Assembly: GCF_005217605.1 (NCBI RefSeq)
Contig: NZ_SZPX01000008.1
Coordinates: forward strand, 62,001-126,000
Direction: 5' to 3'
DNA: 64,000 nucleotides
DNA from: Sulfurimonas crateris
Lineage (GTDB): Bacteria > Campylobacterota > Campylobacteria > Campylobacterales > Sulfurimonadaceae
In this document: piece by piece, positions 27,718 through 36,915 of the stretch
How the letters are laid out: each line of letters starts with the position of its first letter
Position numbering within the stretch: the first letter of the stretch is position 1
Notes under the pieces: generated by a model
Databases searched by the model: none
Seen by the model: the letters and a program-made list of their open reading frames with translations, nothing else
What the model was told of the DNA's origin: nothing
Translations under genes and position numbers: made by a program

Positions 27718-29148
27718 ATGGATAAATATCTTAAATCAAGCATAGTATTTTTCTTTGCTATATCTTTTTTTGTGTTCGGATGGCTCTCGCATACGGCATA
27801 TGAGCCTATTCACAGAATCAAAACACCATCTTTGCTAGATGAGATAAAAGAGAAAAAAATTCTTAACGTAGTACTTTTAAACTCTCCATCCACATACTAT
27901 ATAGGGGCAGACGGAGCAAAGGGTTTTGAGTATGATCTTCTTGATGCATACGCTAAGCATTTGGGCGTTAAGTTAAATATCACGGTTGCAAATACTACAA
28001 AAGAGGCACTAGAACTCAGTAGAGATCCAAATATTCACATAACTTCAGCATCTTTGGCAAAAACCAAGATCAAAGAGAAAAATTTTAATTTCGGACCATC
28101 ATATTTTGAGGCTCAGCAGCAGGTGATCTGCTACAGAGGAATGTTGTGGCAGGGTCATTTTCCAAAAAGTATAGAGGATCTGACGGGGCTGAGAATAGTT
28201 GTAGGAGAAGATACAAGTTACAGCGAGACCATAGAGTCGCTGCGCCAAGACGGCTTTGATATAAATGCGACATACACATCAGAACACTCTACCGAAGAAC
28301 TTTTGGCAAAAGTCGCCGATAATGAGATAGACTGCACAATAGCAGACTCAAATATATATGCTCTAAATCAGCGCTATTTTCCAAAGATAGCTCTTGCTTT
28401 TTCAGTTAGTAACCGAGAACAGCTTGCCTGGGTTCTTGCACCCGATTCAAAAGAGCTAAAAGATGATATGTACTCTTGGCTTAATGGCTTTAATCAAAGC
28501 GGAGAGATGGCACGCCTAAAAGATCACTACTACTCTTTTGCTCTCTTTTTTGACTACTACAACACTAAGACCTTTTACGACAGGATAAAATCCAGACTTC
28601 CTAAATATAAGGAGCTTTTTGAAAAGTATGGGGAGAAGTATAATATTCCATGCTCAGTATTGGCCGCGCAATCATATCAGGAGTCTCACTGGAACCCAAA
28701 AGCAAAGAGCTATACTGGAGTTAGGGGACTAATGATGTTAACGCAGTCTACGGCGAAAATGTTAGGAGTTAAAAATAGACTTGATCCAGAGCAGAGCATT
28801 GAGGGCGGAGCAAAACATTTAAATGAGCTGTTGAAACGTGTACCCCCTGAAGTAAGTGGAGAAGACCGTCTAAAGTTTGCACTTGCGGCATACAATGTCG
28901 GCTTGGGTCATATTTTTGATGCGCAGTTATTGGCGGAGAGAATGGGGCTTAACAAAAATGTCTGGAGCGATCTTAAGAAGGTGCTTCCTCTCCTTGCGCA
29001 AAAAAAGTACTACAAAACGCTAAAGCACGGATATGCAAGAGGAAGCGAGCCTGTGAGGTACGTTGACTCAATATATGACTATAGAGATATTTTGCAAAAA
29101 AGCAGCTATGAGCCGTTTTTAGGCAAAGAGGAGAAAGATGAAATATGA
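27718..29148 (+). CDS. mltF: Membrane-bound lytic transglycosylase F
   Basis: 476 residues. An N-terminal signal/anchor helix (about 8-25) is followed by a solute-binding-like domain (~45-270) and a C-terminal SLT domain with catalytic Glu in '[14 protein letters not shown]', then '[17 protein letters not shown]' and '[12 protein letters not shown]'. MltF cleaves peptidoglycan to anhydro-muropeptides. The 3' end overlaps the Crp/Fnr gene start by 11 bases if that gene starts at 29138. Confidence 0.92.
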
Positions 29149-29764
29149 GGAAAATAGTATGATATCATTTAGTTTTTTTGATAAACTTGAGCAAAAGAGT
29201 AAAGAAGCGCTGTTGGAGGTAGCGGTTTTTATGAAAATCCCTGCCGGTATGCAGCTATATTCACAGGGAGATATATGTGAGGATGTTTTGTTTTTAACCA
29301 AAGGTCGCGTCCGCGTTACCAGACAGCATGAGAACGGACAAAGTGTACTTTTGTATTATTTTGAACATGGTGAGCAGTGTAATGTTAATTTTACTGCCGC
29401 ATTAAATTCCGCTCCCGCCGTGGGTACTGCGATAGCAGAGACGGATTTAGAAGGCTTTGATGTTCCTGCTGTAGTTGTAGCACGTTTGTTTATAGAAGAT
29501 AAAGAGTTTCAAAGTTATGTTTTTGATCAATATATAAGACGGATTGAATTTATGGCAACTATGATTGAAGATATACGCTTTTTAAGTTTAGATACGCGAC
29601 TTCTTCACTGGCTGCAAGAGCATGATGAGAAAACACTACATATATCACATGAAGAGATAGGAACTATTCTTGGAACATCACGCGAGGTTGTAAGCAAGAT
29701 TTTGAAAACATTTGAAAAAAATCAAATCGTTAAGTTATCAAGAAAAAAGATAGAGATTTTGTAA
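29138..29764 (+). CDS. Crp/Fnr-family transcription regulator
   Basis: 208 residues. An N-terminal cyclic-nucleotide-type beta-barrel (about 10-120, '[27 protein letters not shown]') is followed by a dimer helix and a C-terminal winged helix: '[30 protein letters not shown]'. The recognition helix S-R-E-V-V-S-K has the Arg-Glu pair of Crp, which fits the TGTRA-type half-sites found at four nearby promoters. The Fnr N-terminal cysteine cluster is absent; the single Cys residues are C48 and C87. The start at 29138 has GAGGAG upstream; ATG 29159 with its own GAGGA is the alternative. It lies right upstream of the KCG-peptide gene. Confidence 0.88.
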
Positions 29765-29775
29765 TATGCAATCTT

Positions 29776-29820
29776 ATGTAATCGTTGTCACATAAAAAGT
29801 TATTATAGTTATGATACAAT
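29776..29820 (+). promoter_or_regulatory. Crp-type operator plus extended -10 of the KCG-peptide gene
   Basis: ATGTAA-TCGTTG-TCACAT (29776-29793) is an ATGTRA-N6-TYACAT dyad. TGaTACAAT follows, with the -10 at 29815-29820. The operator centre (29784.5) lies 35.5 bases before the end of the -10, about -42 relative to a start near 29827, the class-II activator position. Confidence 0.7.
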
Positions 29821-29853: not shown

Positions 29854-30132
29854 ATGAAAAAGTTTAATTTTTTATCGTTAGTTGCAGCTGCTGCAATGGT
29901 TTTAAGTGTTGGTGCTACGACGCTGAGTGCTGAGGATATGAAGTGTGGCGCAGGCAAATGCGGTGACGCAAAAAAAGAGATGAAAAAAGATGGCAAATGC
30001 GGAACTAGCAAGTGCGGTGACGCAAAAAAAGAGATGAAAAAAGATGGCAAGTGCGGTGACGGAAAAAAAGAGATGAAAAAAGAAGCGTCTCAAGCAGGCA
30101 AGTGCGGCAAAGGAAAATGCGGCTCTAACTAA
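29854..30132 (+). CDS. Exported KCG-repeat peptide, HvfA-like RiPP metallophore candidate
   Basis: 92 residues. A signal peptide (1-26, ending 'TTLSAED') precedes a Lys/Gly-rich mature part with seven cysteines, every one in a KCG motif and mostly GKCG. An 18-residue unit (54 bp) repeats. The composition and motif resemble HvfA-family precursors (EGKCG repeats), whose cysteines are converted to oxazolone-thioamides by DUF692 (MNIO) enzymes and bind copper. No DUF692 or DUF2063 gene is in this window, so modification is unproven. It has AAGGATAG before the ATG. A simple Cys-rich metal-binding protein is the alternative. Confidence 0.75.
   Translation: MKKFNFLSLVAAAAMVLSVGATTLSAEDMKCGAGKCGDAKKEMKKDGKCGTSKCGDAKKEMKKDGKCGDGKKEMKKEASQAGKCGKGKCGSN
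29959..30089 (+). repeat. In-frame tandem repeat in the KCG-peptide gene
   Basis: The unit beginning TGCGGTGACG recurs at 29959 and 30013 (54-bp period) and again, shortened, at 30052 (39-bp spacing). Each copy codes for CGDAKKEMKKDGK or a close variant. The near identity suggests recent duplication and scope for copy-number change in frame. Confidence 0.8.
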
Positions 30133-30160
30133 CTTCATTTTTTAAGCAGAGTAACTCTGC

Positions 30161-31030
30161 TTAAAAATCTATCTTCATTCTATCTTCGGCAAAAATCACA
30201 TCCCCTGAAAAATCCTTATGAATTAGTTTGAGAGTCTCTTCCTCATGCGTTTTCGTTCTTTTCATTCTGTGCGTCAATACAATTTTTTTCACTTGAGCTT
30301 TTACGGCAATATTTGCAATTGTAGATGGTGTCATATGTAGCTCTTTTGCAAAATTATTTGTTTCTTGGGGTATCGCATGATGTGCTATAAAGAGATCTGC
30401 TCTGTATGCAAATCTTTCTAGGGTGTTTTGCTCATCATTGGTGTCCCCGCTAATAACAATAGATTTTGAACCTACATCTATACGCAAAGCAAGTGCAGGG
30501 ACTATGCCGTGATGAACCGTAATAAAATTAAGTGTAAAATCTTTGTATCTTAGTGTTTTTTTTTCTCCTTTAGCTATTTCAATGGGTATGAGTTCAAAAG
30601 AATCACTCTGTGATGTGAGGATGTCTTGCATGTACCGATAGGCTCCTTTTTTACCGAATAGAATCTCCACAAACTCTCTAATGGATGGAAAATAGTTATT
30701 GCCGTAAGGTCCAACAATATCCAAAGAGTTTTGTCGATTTGTAAAAAATCCTGCTTTCATAAAAGAGGGAAGATCTGCACTGTGATCGATGTGCATATGC
30801 GTAAGGACAACAGCATCAAGATCTTCTGTAGCCGCACTGCTTTGTTCAAAGCGCAGCATAGAACCACTTCCAAGATCAATGAGCAGTTTCGCTTTGTCGT
30901 CAATCCATAACAGATAAGAGGTGCTGGCACGCCCATCTATCTCAGGGCCTCCTGAACCGAGTATCTCAAATCTTATATTTTTTCCATGAATGAGTGTTAA
31001 GGTTAGGCAAAAAATTAAAAAAAATTTCAT
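30161..31030 (-). CDS. Exported MBL-fold metallohydrolase
   Basis: 289 residues with an N-terminal signal peptide ('MKFFLIFCLTLTLIHG'). Metal-ligand motif 'THMHIDHSADLP' (HxHxDH), a later 'ISGDTN' Asp and 'HHAIPQE' His, and 'LTHR' complete the metallo-beta-lactamase fold; the pattern is nearest RNase Z/arylsulfatase-like MBL hydrolases. It would act in the periplasm on an unknown substrate. It is downstream of the HD-GYP gene (28-base gap), in an operon reading away from the shared operator at 32212. It carries an A9 run mid-gene. Confidence 0.82.
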   Translation of the reverse strand: MKFFLIFCLTLTLIHGKNIRFEILGSGGPEIDGRASTSYLLWIDDKAKLLIDLGSGSMLRFEQSSAATEDLDAVVLTHMHIDHSADLPSFMKAGFFTNRQNSLDIVGPYGNNYFPSIREFVEILFGKKGAYRYMQDILTSQSDSFELIPIEIAKGEKKTLRYKDFTLNFITVHHGIVPALALRIDVGSKSIVISGDTNDEQNTLERFAYRADLFIAHHAIPQETNNFAKELHMTPSTIANIAVKAQVKKIVLTHRMKRTKTHEEETLKLIHKDFSGDVIFAEDRMKIDF

Positions 31031-32185: not shown

Positions 32186-32255
32186 AGTATATCATTTTTT
32201 ATATGAGACAAATGTAATCAAGCTTACATACAGAGTTATAAATATCTGTTATGAT
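32186..32255. promoter_or_regulatory. Divergent promoter with one central Crp-type palindrome
   Basis: The perfect dyad ATGTAA-TCAAGC-TTACAT (32212-32229) is centred at 32220.5. To the right, TGtTATGAT has its -10 at 32250-32255. To the left, on the minus strand, TGaTATACT has its -10 at 32191-32186. Both -10 elements end exactly 34.5 bases from the palindrome centre, so one dimer could sit at about -41.5 for both divergent operons. Confidence 0.75.
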
Positions 32256-32287
32256 ATGTCAGTTTAAAATTGATTGAGGAGTGTACT

Positions 32288-32728
32288 ATGAAGTGCAAAC
32301 AGATATATATTGAGTTTTCCAGGTTGAGCGAGTATTTGAAATCATTTAGTTTGTTGTTAGCGCGTTTGGCGGTTGCTTACGGGTTTTATGAGCCTGCTAT
32401 GATGAAGTGGGGTGATATAGCCTCTGTTTCCGGTTGGTTTGCGTCTATGGGCATACCGTTTCCAACGCTCAATGCTTATATGGCGGCAAGTACCGAGATA
32501 GTCGGTGTAATACTGCTTACTTTAGGGCTTTTGACACGGTTTATTTCACTGCCGCTTATCATCGTAATGATTGTTGCCATCGTAACCGTACACCTTCCAA
32601 ACGGTTTTTCTGCAGGTGATAACGGCTATGAAATACCACTTTACTACATGTTATTTTTGCTTATCTTTGTATCGCATGGAGCAGGTAAATTTAGCCTTGA
32701 CAGACTTTTTTTCGGTGAGAAGAGCTAA
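32288..32728 (+). CDS. DoxX-family protein, HvfX-like
   Basis: 146 residues from the ATG at 32288 (TGAGGAG upstream). Four membrane helices with the DoxX pattern. The stretch 'GWFASMGIPFPTLNAYMAASTEIVG', followed by 'LGLLTRFISLPLIIVMIVAIVTVHLPNG', strongly resembles HvfX/GigT-type DoxX proteins, which accompany copper-related RiPP (HvfA) clusters. It is first in an operon with the flavoprotein genes that follow (gap 3 bases). Its promoter shares the operator type of the KCG-peptide promoter, which supports a functional link. Confidence 0.82.
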   Translation: MKCKQIYIEFSRLSEYLKSFSLLLARLAVAYGFYEPAMMKWGDIASVSGWFASMGIPFPTLNAYMAASTEIVGVILLTLGLLTRFISLPLIIVMIVAIVTVHLPNGFSAGDNGYEIPLYYMLFLLIFVSHGAGKFSLDRLFFGEKS

Positions 32729-32731
32729 AAT

Positions 32732-34483
32732 ATGGAAGCACTCTTAGATTTTAAAGATGCGGTAAGCCAATTTCGTTTTCCGCTTCTTTTCTTTTTGCTT
32801 CAGGCTTCATTGATTGTTTTTGCTATTATCTCTCTTGTTCTGTTTATCTATGACAGATTTATTCAAAGAGAGGACCAATTACTTATCAACTACCCTCTCA
32901 TAGGGCGTATGCGGTATCTTTTTTATCTCTTGCGTGATCCGATGAGACAATATTTCGGGGATGAGAAGTTTTATGAGTCTTTTGATAAAGTAAAATGGGT
33001 TTATGACTCCGCAGAGAGAAAAGCCGCGTACGCCTCTTTTTCTCCGGGACAACCACAAAAATCTGCACGGCTCTCCATTAAAAATGCCAACTGTGTGCTA
33101 AACACGGAGGATGTTAGCGAGGAGTTTGGGGTTACTTTTGGAGAAGATTCAAAGCACCCTTTTAAAGCTCATTCAGTTTTGGGTAGAAGCGCCATGAGTG
33201 ACGGTGCGATTTCTCCGGAGGGAACACGCGCTTTTAGTAAAGGGGCTTATCTGGGAGGTTTTCCTATCAATACGGGAGAGGGAAGCCTTACCTCAAACTT
33301 CTTATATACACATTGCTACAATCCCAAAAACAGAGATTATCTTGATGTAATTGAGGGAACCTTTTTTGCCAAGAGTGTTTATCTGTTTGTGAAATTTCTG
33401 CTTAATGCTTCTGCTGCCGAGAAGGTATATAGGCATATGGTTATTTTATCAAGCGATGCAGAGAGCTATCTTTTTGATGAAGAGCATAAGGTGTGTTATC
33501 GTGTTAACTGGAGAGCACCCCTTGAAGCATTTCCAAAAGAGATACCATCGGATGTGCCCGATATCATTTTTCAAATCGGAAGCGGTCTTTACGGTGTTAG
33601 AGACGATAAAGGCAATTTTGATGAGCAGCGTTATATAAAAAGCATGCGATTCGCCCGGATGACGGAGATAAAAATGGCGCAGGGAGCCAAGCAGACGGGA
33701 GGAAAGCTTTTAGCAGACAAGGTAAGCGAATCCGTGGCTTATTACAGGGGAGTAGAGGCGCATAGAGATCTCTTTTCACCCAATCGGTTTCCCTATGGAA
33801 AAACTCTTGAAGAACTTTTTGATTTTATGGGCAGGCTCAAAGAGCTATCGGATAAGCCAGTGGGTGTGAAAATTGTTATCTCTTCAAAGGATACTTTTTT
33901 GGAGTATGCTTCTTTAATAAAAAAAAGAGTAGAGGAGGGTTCTAGAGCGTATCCGGATTTTATTACGATTGACGGGGGTGAGGGCGGAAGCGGTGCCGCA
34001 CCTCTGGAGATGATGATGACGGTCGGAATGGTAATAGCAAAAGCACTCTATATAGCAGATATGGCACTCAAAGAAGCAGGCGTACGAGAAAAAGTTAAAC
34101 TTATTGCGAGTGAAAAAGTGCTTACTCCCGATGATGCCATCGTTCTTTTTGGCATCGGTGCGGATTATGTAGGAATTGCCAGAGCCTTCATGATGAGTGC
34201 AGGATGTATTCGCGCACGTGAATGTTCGGGAGCACATGGACGGCACTGTCCCGTCGGACTTGCAACGCAAGACAAAAAGAAGAGAGCCTCTTTTTTGGTG
34301 GAGCAAAAAGCAAGAAATGTCGCCTCTTATCACGCGCAGATGATACACGGTATGCAGCAGCTTTTGGCGATTATGGGAGTAGATCACATATCAAAACTCA
34401 ACAAATCACACCTTATCTTTAAAGACCATGCGGGAAAAACTTATATGAATGTAGATAACTATTTTGAAGAAATGTTAGTATAA
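32732..34483 (+). CDS. FMN-binding glutamate-synthase-family membrane protein
   Basis: 583 residues. An N-terminal membrane helix (about 18-42) precedes a glutamate-synthase alpha/beta-barrel domain: 'SDGAISPEGTRAFSKGAYLGGFPINTGEG', 'FITIDGGEGGSGAAPL', 'IASEKVLTPDDAI'. The Fe-S-type cysteine cluster is 'GCIRARECSGAHGRHCPVG'. These GltB-like stand-alone proteins bind FMN; most lack the amidotransferase domain, as here, so glutamate synthesis is not implied. The gene is 3 bases after the DoxX gene and 6 before the Tat-subunit gene. Confidence 0.85.
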   Translation: MEALLDFKDAVSQFRFPLLFFLLQASLIVFAIISLVLFIYDRFIQREDQLLINYPLIGRMRYLFYLLRDPMRQYFGDEKFYESFDKVKWVYDSAERKAAYASFSPGQPQKSARLSIKNANCVLNTEDVSEEFGVTFGEDSKHPFKAHSVLGRSAMSDGAISPEGTRAFSKGAYLGGFPINTGEGSLTSNFLYTHCYNPKNRDYLDVIEGTFFAKSVYLFVKFLLNASAAEKVYRHMVILSSDAESYLFDEEHKVCYRVNWRAPLEAFPKEIPSDVPDIIFQIGSGLYGVRDDKGNFDEQRYIKSMRFARMTEIKMAQGAKQTGGKLLADKVSESVAYYRGVEAHRDLFSPNRFPYGKTLEELFDFMGRLKELSDKPVGVKIVISSKDTFLEYASLIKKRVEEGSRAYPDFITIDGGEGGSGAAPLEMMMTVGMVIAKALYIADMALKEAGVREKVKLIASEKVLTPDDAIVLFGIGADYVGIARAFMMSAGCIRARECSGAHGRHCPVGLATQDKKKRASFLVEQKARNVASYHAQMIHGMQQLLAIMGVDHISKLNKSHLIFKDHAGKTYMNVDNYFEEMLV

Positions 34484-34489
34484 TAAAGT

Positions 34490-34981
34490 ATGATTTTAAA
34501 TACACGCAGAAATTTTTTCAAACAAAGTTTTTTAGGCGGAGCTGTTTTGCTCTTTGCCGGTTCCTCTTTGTACGGAGCAGCGGAACCTTTAAAAACTCTC
34601 ACACTTGTTCAAGAAGATCTTTTTCCAAAAGCAAAAGAGCTCTATGTCGATACCACTTCTTATCTGCTGCTTATTTTAGACCATTCAAGAATTAGCACTT
34701 CACACAAAGAGTTTCTTCGCAATGGCGTTCAATGGCTTCATGAGGAGTCCCTAAAGCTTCACGGCAAGCTTTACTACAATCTTTCAGCACAAAAACGACA
34801 AGAGGTGTTGCAGGAGATTTCAGAGTATGGATGGGGCGAGTCATGGATAGAGGCTCTTTTGACTTACAGTATGGAAGCGCTGCGCAGTGACGCAGTTTAC
34901 GGTGTAAACAAAAAAGATGCGGCGCAAAAGTGGCTTGGATTTAGTGCGGGTTTGCCGCATCCAAAAAGTGCGTATCTATGA
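34490..34981 (+). CDS. Tat-exported gluconate-2-dehydrogenase-subunit-3-like protein
   Basis: 163 residues. The N-terminus 'NTRRNFFKQSFLGGAVLLFAGSSLYGA' is a twin-arginine signal, and the mature part has the Gluc2DH_3 features 'LLLILDHSRISTSHKEFLRNGVQWLHEES' and 'WIEALLTYSMEA'. Such small subunits pair with a GMC flavoprotein and help export it by Tat. The next gene is a GMC oxidoreductase, overlapping by 4 bases (ATGA). Confidence 0.8.
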   Translation: MILNTRRNFFKQSFLGGAVLLFAGSSLYGAAEPLKTLTLVQEDLFPKAKELYVDTTSYLLLILDHSRISTSHKEFLRNGVQWLHEESLKLHGKLYYNLSAQKRQEVLQEISEYGWGESWIEALLTYSMEALRSDAVYGVNKKDAAQKWLGFSAGLPHPKSAYL

Positions 34982-36636
34982 CGTACGATGTTTGCATCAT
35001 CGGGAGCGGTGCAGGCGGCTCGCCTGTCGCTTATGAGCTGAGTCGCGCAGGTTTTAGTGTAGTTGTGCTTGAAAAAGGAAAAGAGTACAAAGAAGATGAT
35101 TTTAACAAAGATGAGCTGGCGGTTTCGCGGCGCGAGCTTTTTACGCCCGACCTTAAAGATGAGCAGCATGTTATTTATGAACTAGACGAGAGTAAAGAGC
35201 GCAGAAGATATCTAGGAAGCGATTACCAATGGAGTTTTTGGAACGGCTCTATGGTGGGAGGATCATCAAACCTTATGAGCGGCTATTTCCACCGCATGAA
35301 GCCAAACGACTTTAAGCTTCTCTCGACTCATGGAGAGATAGAGGGCGCAAATGTGGCTGATTGGCCTCTCTCTTATGAAGAACTGGAGCCATACTACGAA
35401 AAAGTTGAGCGCATAGTCGGTGTTAGCGGGGAAGTGGTTGCACACTCTTTTTTAGAGCCCAGAAGCACCTCCCATTTTCCTTATGCAAAACTTGAAGAAA
35501 ACGGAGTGACAAAGTGGTTTGACGCCGCATGTAAATCTCTTGACTTTGAGAGCATTCCGACTCCGCGGGCAATAATTCCACATGCGGCACTAAAGCGACA
35601 TGGCTGCTCTTACTCTAACTTTTGCGGGAGTTACGGATGTGCAACGGGTGCAAAAGGGAGTGCCAGAGCTGCACTTCTTCAAAAGTGTGATGCAAGAGTT
35701 ATTACCGAAGCGTTTGTATATAAGCTTGAGAGCGATGCGACAAAGGTTACAAAAGCACACTACTATGATAGCGACATGAAGACGCATGAAATTAGTGCTA
35801 AAATCTTTGTTTTAGCCGCACAAGCAATAGAGAGCTCACGTTTGCTCTTAAACTCAAAAAATCGTTTTTTCCCTTATGGTTTGGCAAACAACAATCATCA
35901 AGTAGGAAAAAATCTTATTTTCTCAGGCGGAGGAGCAGGGGAGGGGCGATTTCGTTTTGAAACGCTTACTCATGAGCAGCAAAAAGAGCTTATGGAGGTC
36001 GGTCTTTTCTTTAACCGCTCTTTGCAGCAGTGGTATGAGTATAAAAAGAGCAGTAAAAAAATAAAAGGCGGAACCATAGACTTTCTGTTTGAGCATCAAA
36101 ATTTGGTTCCCCGCATAAAAAGAGCTTTTTATGATGAAGAGGGAAAAATTCTTTGGGGTAAGGCTCTTGAGCAAAAAATTCATAAAGAGCTTACGACTTC
36201 AAGAGTTTTGAATTTTGAAGTTTTTAATGACTGGCTTCCTACGGATGAGTGTTTTGTAGGTATTGAAGAGGAGGTTAAAGACAAGTACGGCATCCCTGTG
36301 GGCGCAATACATCTCTACAGCCATCCTCGTGATAGAGAAGTCGGTGACGATTTGGCAAAAAAAGCTGTGCAGGTGTTGGAGAAAATGGGAGCTACCGAGA
36401 TAAACTACTCCATCTCCTCTGCTCCTCCGCCAAATCTTGTGGCAGGCGGCTGCAGATTTGGAGAGAATCCTAAAACATCCGTACTCGATAAAAACTGCAA
36501 AGCGCATGCATTAGATAACCTTTATGTTACGGATGCTAGTTTTATGCCTACGGGAGGAAGTGTGCCCTATACATGGACTATCTATGCGAACGCTTTTCGT
36601 ATAGCAGATATTTTACGCAAAAGATTGGAGTCTTAA
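34978..36636 (+). CDS. GMC-family oxidoreductase
   Basis: 552 residues. The N-terminal FAD fold has 'VCIIGSGAGGSPVA' (GxGxxG at 9-14) and an acidic 'VVLEKG'. 'GSDYQWSFWNGSMVGGSSNLMSG' follows, and the C-terminus 'NLYVTDASFMPTGGSVPYTWTIYANAFRIAD' is the GMC C-domain. There is no own signal peptide, so export would rely on the Tat subunit encoded just upstream. The substrate (alcohol, sugar or other) cannot be inferred. It is the last gene of the DoxX-led operon. Confidence 0.87.
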   Translation: MTYDVCIIGSGAGGSPVAYELSRAGFSVVVLEKGKEYKEDDFNKDELAVSRRELFTPDLKDEQHVIYELDESKERRRYLGSDYQWSFWNGSMVGGSSNLMSGYFHRMKPNDFKLLSTHGEIEGANVADWPLSYEELEPYYEKVERIVGVSGEVVAHSFLEPRSTSHFPYAKLEENGVTKWFDAACKSLDFESIPTPRAIIPHAALKRHGCSYSNFCGSYGCATGAKGSARAALLQKCDARVITEAFVYKLESDATKVTKAHYYDSDMKTHEISAKIFVLAAQAIESSRLLLNSKNRFFPYGLANNNHQVGKNLIFSGGGAGEGRFRFETLTHEQQKELMEVGLFFNRSLQQWYEYKKSSKKIKGGTIDFLFEHQNLVPRIKRAFYDEEGKILWGKALEQKIHKELTTSRVLNFEVFNDWLPTDECFVGIEEEVKDKYGIPVGAIHLYSHPRDREVGDDLAKKAVQVLEKMGATEINYSISSAPPPNLVAGGCRFGENPKTSVLDKNCKAHALDNLYVTDASFMPTGGSVPYTWTIYANAFRIADILRKRLES

Positions 36637-36646
36637 ATTTATACTT

Positions 36647-36690
36647 ATGTGACAAATATTACATACTCTTTACTTTTCTTCTGTAATAAT
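36647..36690 (+). promoter_or_regulatory. Crp-type operator plus extended -10 of the 64-aa gene
   Basis: ATGTGA-CAAATA-TTACAT (36647-36664), in reverse complement, matches the KCG-peptide operator at 18 of 20 positions of the extended site. TGtAATAAT gives a -10 at 36685-36690, ending 34.5 bases from the operator centre. Confidence 0.7.
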
Positions 36691-36720: not shown

Positions 36721-36915
36721 ATGTGTATCCCACATGGAGCTATGGGCTCGGTAGATAATGGATATGTCAAAGAAGATAAACCTAAAAAAAGCATTAAGAG
36801 AGTTTCTCAAGAAGTTTTTGAAAAAGGCGATCCCAACTTTGTAGATGAGAGAGTAAAACCTTATGAACCTCAAAAGAAAAAGAAAGGATTGTTAGAGTCG
36901 CTTTTTTCCTCTTGA
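36721..36915 (+). CDS. Small soluble protein of unknown function
   Basis: 64 residues starting 'MCIPHGAMGSVDNGYVKED' and rich in Lys, Asp and Glu, with no signal peptide. AAAAAGGAGAGAAG before the ATG is a strong ribosome binding site. I do not recognise the family. It has its own promoter with a Crp-type operator and so belongs to the same inferred regulon as the KCG peptide. Its single Cys (C2) and His (H5) at the extreme N-terminus could bind metal, which is speculation. Confidence 0.7.
   Translation: MCIPHGAMGSVDNGYVKEDKPKKSIKRVSQEVFEKGDPNFVDERVKPYEPQKKKKGLLESLFSS

Follow-up and report, generated by a model that had tools for sequence, protein, structure and literature searches.

HvfABCX, or oxazolin (Buf_EGKCG), systems combine a secreted KCG-repeat precursor with the DoxX-family protein HvfX. 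The product of HvfB (an iron enzyme of the MNIO or DUF692 family) and HvfC (DUF2063) is now assigned as 5-thiooxazole (PMC13419390, PMC12668002), which makes the oxazolone-thioamide named in the original prediction for the present locus outdated. HvfX is uncharacterised (PMC13419390). A census of MNIOs counted 2,583 genomes encoding EGKCG precursors, 67 of them lacking an MNIO, and the precursors of these 67 were proposed either to have activities needing no modification or to have lost their function; GMC enzymes go unmentioned there (PMC12452194). In 2026, the GMC-family flavoenzymes ThaO and TheO were shown to install thiazoles at Gly-Cys of RiPP precursors (PMC13083261). Within a partial coverage of the literature, we found no paper linking GMC enzymes with HvfA-like peptides.

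The locus studied here lies in a window of 64,000 nucleotides (the whole stretch of DNA analysed) from Sulfurimonas crateris. An HvfA-like precursor and HvfX are encoded there and HvfB and HvfC are absent, so that the locus amounts to half an Hvf system. Unlike HvfABCX, it has no MNIO and no DUF2063 protein, and instead has a GMC flavoprotein and a Gluconate_2-dh3 protein in a transcription unit of their own. Canonical KCG-HvfB-HvfC-HvfX loci occur within the same order. Like ThaO and TheO, the locus has a GMC flavoenzyme genetically tied to cysteine-rich precursors. However, those enzymes belong to lanthipeptide clusters of Acidobacteriota and act at Gly-Cys sites, and neither a Tat-signal partner nor HvfX nor a precursor exported by Sec is described in the accessible part of the report. 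TheO requires glycine before cysteine, whereas KCG peptides carry lysine there (PMC13083261).

The KCG peptide gene and the hvfX-GMC operon

The peptide encoded at 29854–30132 is as originally predicted, being 92 amino acids in length with a Sec-type N-terminus and having all seven of its cysteines within KCG. The claimed likeness to HvfA holds for the family domain (NF050137, NCBIfam KCGExKCG; 38.2 bits, cut-off 19.5) but not for the HvfA equivalog (NF050188; 19.8 bits, cut-off 95). The gene has a good ribosome-binding site (AAGGA) and a –10 box (TACAAT). A flavoprotein operon (32288–36636) is located 2 kb downstream, with adjacent genes 3–6 nt apart or overlapping. Its first gene is hvfX, which the original prediction had not included; its start is the ATG at 32288, and our scans used the upstream TTG at 32270. 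The features of the locus are as follows.

29138–29764, + strand: CRP-family regulator, 208 amino acids (HTH_Crp_2 and cNMP_binding above cut-off)
29774–29795, no strand: CRP/FNR-type palindrome TTATGTaatcgttgtcACATAA preceding the KCG gene (motif match)
29854–30132, + strand: HvfA-like KCG-repeat precursor/peptide, 92 amino acids, Sec signal, seven KCG (sequence; NF050137 match)
30139–30167, + strand: intrinsic terminator of the KCG gene, a monocistronic unit (hairpin with 13-bp stem, T-rich tail)
32212–32229, no strand: palindrome again, as ATGTAATCAAGCTTACAT, preceding the hvfX-GMC operon (motif match)
32288–32728, + strand: HvfX-family DoxX membrane protein (NF050144, 120.8 bits, cut-off 80; PF07681)
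32732–34483, + strand: membrane-anchored FMN glutamate-synthase-like protein, 583 amino acids (PF01645, 207.9 bits)
34490–34981, + strand: small subunit of the Gluconate_2-dh3 type; twin-arginine signal, TRRNFFKQSF (PF13618, 26.8, cut-off 23.4)
34978–36636, + strand: GMC flavoprotein, 552 amino acids, candidate KCG-peptide maturase (PF00732/PF05199)
36647–36664, no strand: palindrome for the third time, preceding a 64-amino acid ORF (motif match)
36721–36915, + strand: 64-amino acid ORF with no Pfam family and the same operator (position after the third palindrome)

Three copies of the palindrome (ATGTNAN6TNACAT) lie in the window, where 0.14 would be expected. There are six sites in the whole genome (2.2 Mb); the three at the KCG/GMC locus are in promoter position, and the other three are inside ORFs. 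The CRP-family protein encoded directly upstream of the KCG gene is a candidate regulator of the locus, and the 64-amino acid ORF is, by its operator, a possible third member of the regulon. The palindrome before the KCG gene is kept in the close relative L166 and persists in altered form in L042, L039, L041, and L117. Genome G230 (L042:9872-10087) lacks mltF and an intact CRP gene; what is left of the latter's 3'-end precedes the KCG gene, whose operator has diverged. In the MNIO locus of genome G003, too, an FMN glutamate-synthase-like gene comes after hvfX, and a twin-arginine-type motif is present in 151 of 163 homologous Gluconate_2-dh3 ORFs (repeated loci counted).

The KCG context is not a product of chance, since only ~5% of cysteines fall within KCG when the residues of such peptides are shuffled, compared with 89% in GMC-linked and 76% in MNIO-linked peptides. 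Its retention without an MNIO looks, from the sequences, as if some enzyme still reads the K-C-G context; inheritance of the repeat could be a further contributor. The number of cysteines is not strictly kept, as two KCG repeats are replaced by KYG and KSG in the peptide of the closest relative (L166:2186-2461). These two altered positions are what would be expected of a relict precursor whose function disappeared along with the MNIO. This explanation is very improbable, as the ORF, promoter, and terminator are intact, the operator is conserved, and many lineages lacking an MNIO keep KCG alongside GMC. A signal-peptide motif was considered as a marker of MNIO substrates and dropped, as LLGA-type motifs occur in GMC- and MNIO-linked peptides alike.

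MNIO and GMC enzymes across the order

The absence of DUF692 and DUF2063 genes, originally noted for 64 kb, extends to the whole 2.21-Mb genome, in which neither PF05114 (DUF692, MNIO, HvfB) nor PF09836 (DUF2063, HvfC) has a match. The assembly is 100% complete, and both models do give matches in control genomes. No MNIO was found among 14 sampled genomes of the genus either. Split Hvf loci are known from other genomes (PMC12452194), and maturases encoded elsewhere had been one of the options put forward for this locus. The genome-wide absence of both families rules out a split Hvf locus here, leaving the probability of an ordinary one negligible, barring an MNIO too divergent for PF05114. The single AP_endonuc_2 match (281 amino acids) was rejected as a candidate, its length and score fitting endonuclease IV. 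A YcaO acting in trans is conceivable; the one YcaO (C1:173389) is far from the locus, and no link to the locus was seen.

We surveyed 249 genomes of the order, in which NF050137 is found in 31, MNIO in 22, HvfX above its cut-off in 50, and a GMC of the locus type in 54 (E<1e-100). The translated motif KCGxGKCG is found in 50 (1 match for an out-of-frame control pattern). The 50 genomes with KCGxGKCG divide into 31 with GMC, 14 with MNIO, none with both, and 5 with neither (Fisher 1.2e-8), and the 50 with HvfX into 30 with GMC only, 14 with MNIO only, 1 with both, and 5 with neither (Fisher 1.6e-7), these p-values being inflated by shared ancestry, as the genomes are not independent samples. 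Exclusion is weak across all 249 genomes (p=0.054) and strong only where the KCG/HvfX module is present, the pattern to be expected if the two are alternatives in a single system. Most KCG carriers in the order lack an MNIO, and nearly all of these encode one specific flavoenzyme. There are 17 genomes with GMC that have neither KCGxGKCG nor an above-cut-off HvfX, and the two enzyme types occur together in genome G226 and at locus L203. The latter, a contig of a Sulfurimonas MAG (L203:961-7659), encodes a KCG peptide and the GMC pair in addition to MNIO and DUF2063.

Both types are found inside each of four genera (g9, g25, g57, and g65), and the HvfX tree requires at least eight switches between them, with many of its forks poorly supported. 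MNIO loci have the order KCG-HvfB-HvfC-HvfX (e.g., genome G170), and GMC loci the order KCG-HvfX-Gluc2dh3-GMC or variants of it; genus g57 has both gene orders (G244 and G120). When GTDB contigs were scanned, most matches came from Sulfurimonas, and further ones from Helicobacter sp. 16-1353 (L213), Bacteroidales (L233), Lutibacter (L236), and bacterium PL23b (L241). KCG peptides adjoin the GMC pair in these last four, two of which (L233 and L236) are from Bacteroidota. Within Sulfurimonas, the locus is also present in the cultured S. indica NW8N (L182). At 56 of 119 non-redundant loci, two or more KCG occur in an ORF within 3.5 kb of GMC, compared with none for the reversed motif GCK. About half of the GMC loci have no KCG ORF within that distance, many of these loci being incomplete. 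In one clade (L219, L222–L224, L226, and L229), a queC-like gene adjoins the GMC/Gluc2dh3 pair, and there is no nearby KCG peptide.

Residues and proposed role of the GMC pair

The closest solved relatives of the GMC protein are FAD glucose and fructose dehydrogenases (6a2u, E 9e-60; 7w2j). With these and with gluconate dehydrogenases it shares a GMC catalytic subunit, three Fe-S cysteines, and a small subunit with a Tat signal. The Fe-S cysteines (C210, C216, and C221) are invariant among 120 sequences of the GMC family. In contrast to the FAD sugar dehydrogenases, which have a catalytic histidine and asparagine, the GMC of the locus has Leu487 (120 of 120 sequences) and Pro530 (114 of 120) at these positions, along with its linkage to KCG peptides. 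A more distant two-subunit GMC of three order-mates keeps both residues, in STHNTGG and YNPT. The size and architecture of these order-mates' loci match those of Campylobacter jejuni Cj0414/Cj0415, of which they are probably orthologues, and gluconate dehydrogenase activity has been attributed to Cj0415 in C. jejuni (PMC3156733). As the catalytic pair is lost in the KCG-linked GMC and kept in gluconate dehydrogenases, a role as a sugar dehydrogenase appears unlikely. An AlphaFold2 model of the GMC built from 11 sequences was poor (pLDDT 56) and was left out of the argument.

The KCG peptide, HvfX, and the GMC pair very probably form one functional system that stands in for MNIO/DUF2063. Whether the GMC pair would also chemically modify KCG cysteines is, judging from sequence, an evenly balanced matter. 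In the proposed scheme, the KCG peptide would reach the periplasm via Sec, and the FAD/Fe-S GMC would be carried out by its Tat-signal Gluconate_2-dh3 partner. There it may act on the KCG cysteines, oxidizing Lys-Cys to a heterocycle or to another oxidized form of the thiol, with electrons probably passing to the membrane via HvfX (DoxX). The product would be a periplasmic buffer of copper or another soft metal, probably copper, and GMC and Gluconate_2-dh3 would take the place of HvfB (MNIO) and HvfC (DUF2063). That such RiPP maturation after secretion exists in Bacteroidota too and, within Campylobacterota, has on several occasions supplanted the MNIO pathway of the cytoplasm, we hold tentatively, as just short of an even prospect. 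With about equal chances for and against, the locus may represent a form of the Hvf (oxazolin) class of secreted cysteine-peptide systems that does without an MNIO, and it suggests a second way of making metal-binding cysteine peptides.

The shared palindrome, MNIO exclusivity, operon replacement, and loss of the catalytic pair favor the co-regulated flavoproteins, an option of the original prediction. Along with the absence of MNIO and DUF2063, K-C-G retention, the ThaO/TheO precedent, and copper genes among the neighbors, they argue for maturation by the GMC pair. The copper genes encode CusAB/OEP, CopA ATPase, CopB, HMA, and YtkA, and recur near GMC loci (as occurrences in neighborhoods). 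Counted against GMC maturation are TheO's need for glycine where KCG peptides have lysine, the GMC loci and genomes without KCG, the KCG genomes with neither enzyme, the presence of both in G226 and L203, and the KYG and KSG of L166; a ring thiazole would also bind Cu(I) less strongly than a thiooxazole does.

The main rival is an unmodified KCG peptide serving as a periplasmic thiol buffer for copper, with GMC, Gluc2dh3, and HvfX forming a redox enzyme of their own within the same response to metal stress, a possibility that we take seriously while doubting it. Unmodified function is the published default for precursors without an MNIO (PMC12452194), and it agrees with the frequency of copper genes as neighbors and with GMC being sometimes distant from KCG genes. 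By itself, however, it predicts neither the strict MNIO exclusivity among KCG genomes, nor operon replacement, nor the K-C-G context. The GMC pair might instead be a thiol oxidase/reductase that switches KCG cysteines back and forth between the disulfide and thiol states for metal loading or release, leaving no permanent modification. A flavin, an Fe-S center, and a DoxX membrane partner would suit this, as would cysteine substrates in the periplasm and the DUF4395 protein with a KCG-type tail encoded next to Gluc2dh3. We nevertheless consider thiol cycling unlikely, as no CxxC redox motif was identified and GMC enzymes are not known to act as disulfide oxidases. If it is maturation by GMC that takes place, cysteine-peptide metallophores gain a second biosynthetic route, which uses another cofactor and operates outside the cytoplasm, and a metal-homeostasis branch is added to the GMC RiPP maturases of 2026.

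Other proteins with KCG motifs near GMC loci

DUF4395 membrane proteins with a C-terminal tail of the KCxxGKCxxGKCG type were observed at L169:3954-4655, L170:4816-5508, L171:4790-5488, and L138:7709-8401; in the three Sulfurimonas-type loci, the DUF4395 gene is 5–19 nt upstream of Gluc2dh3. A second lipoprotein-like family near GMC, 116–141 amino acids in length, has KCG pairs at each terminus around a core conserved as ANMFDG..KKKKNIL..MR..DPR (L041:9079-9501, L039:7651-8025, L200:9885-10307, and L187:10562-10987). YtkA-like proteins carry an N-terminal KCGAGKCG tag directly after the signal peptide (L051:6393-6839, L023:1441-1890, and L022:1435-1734).
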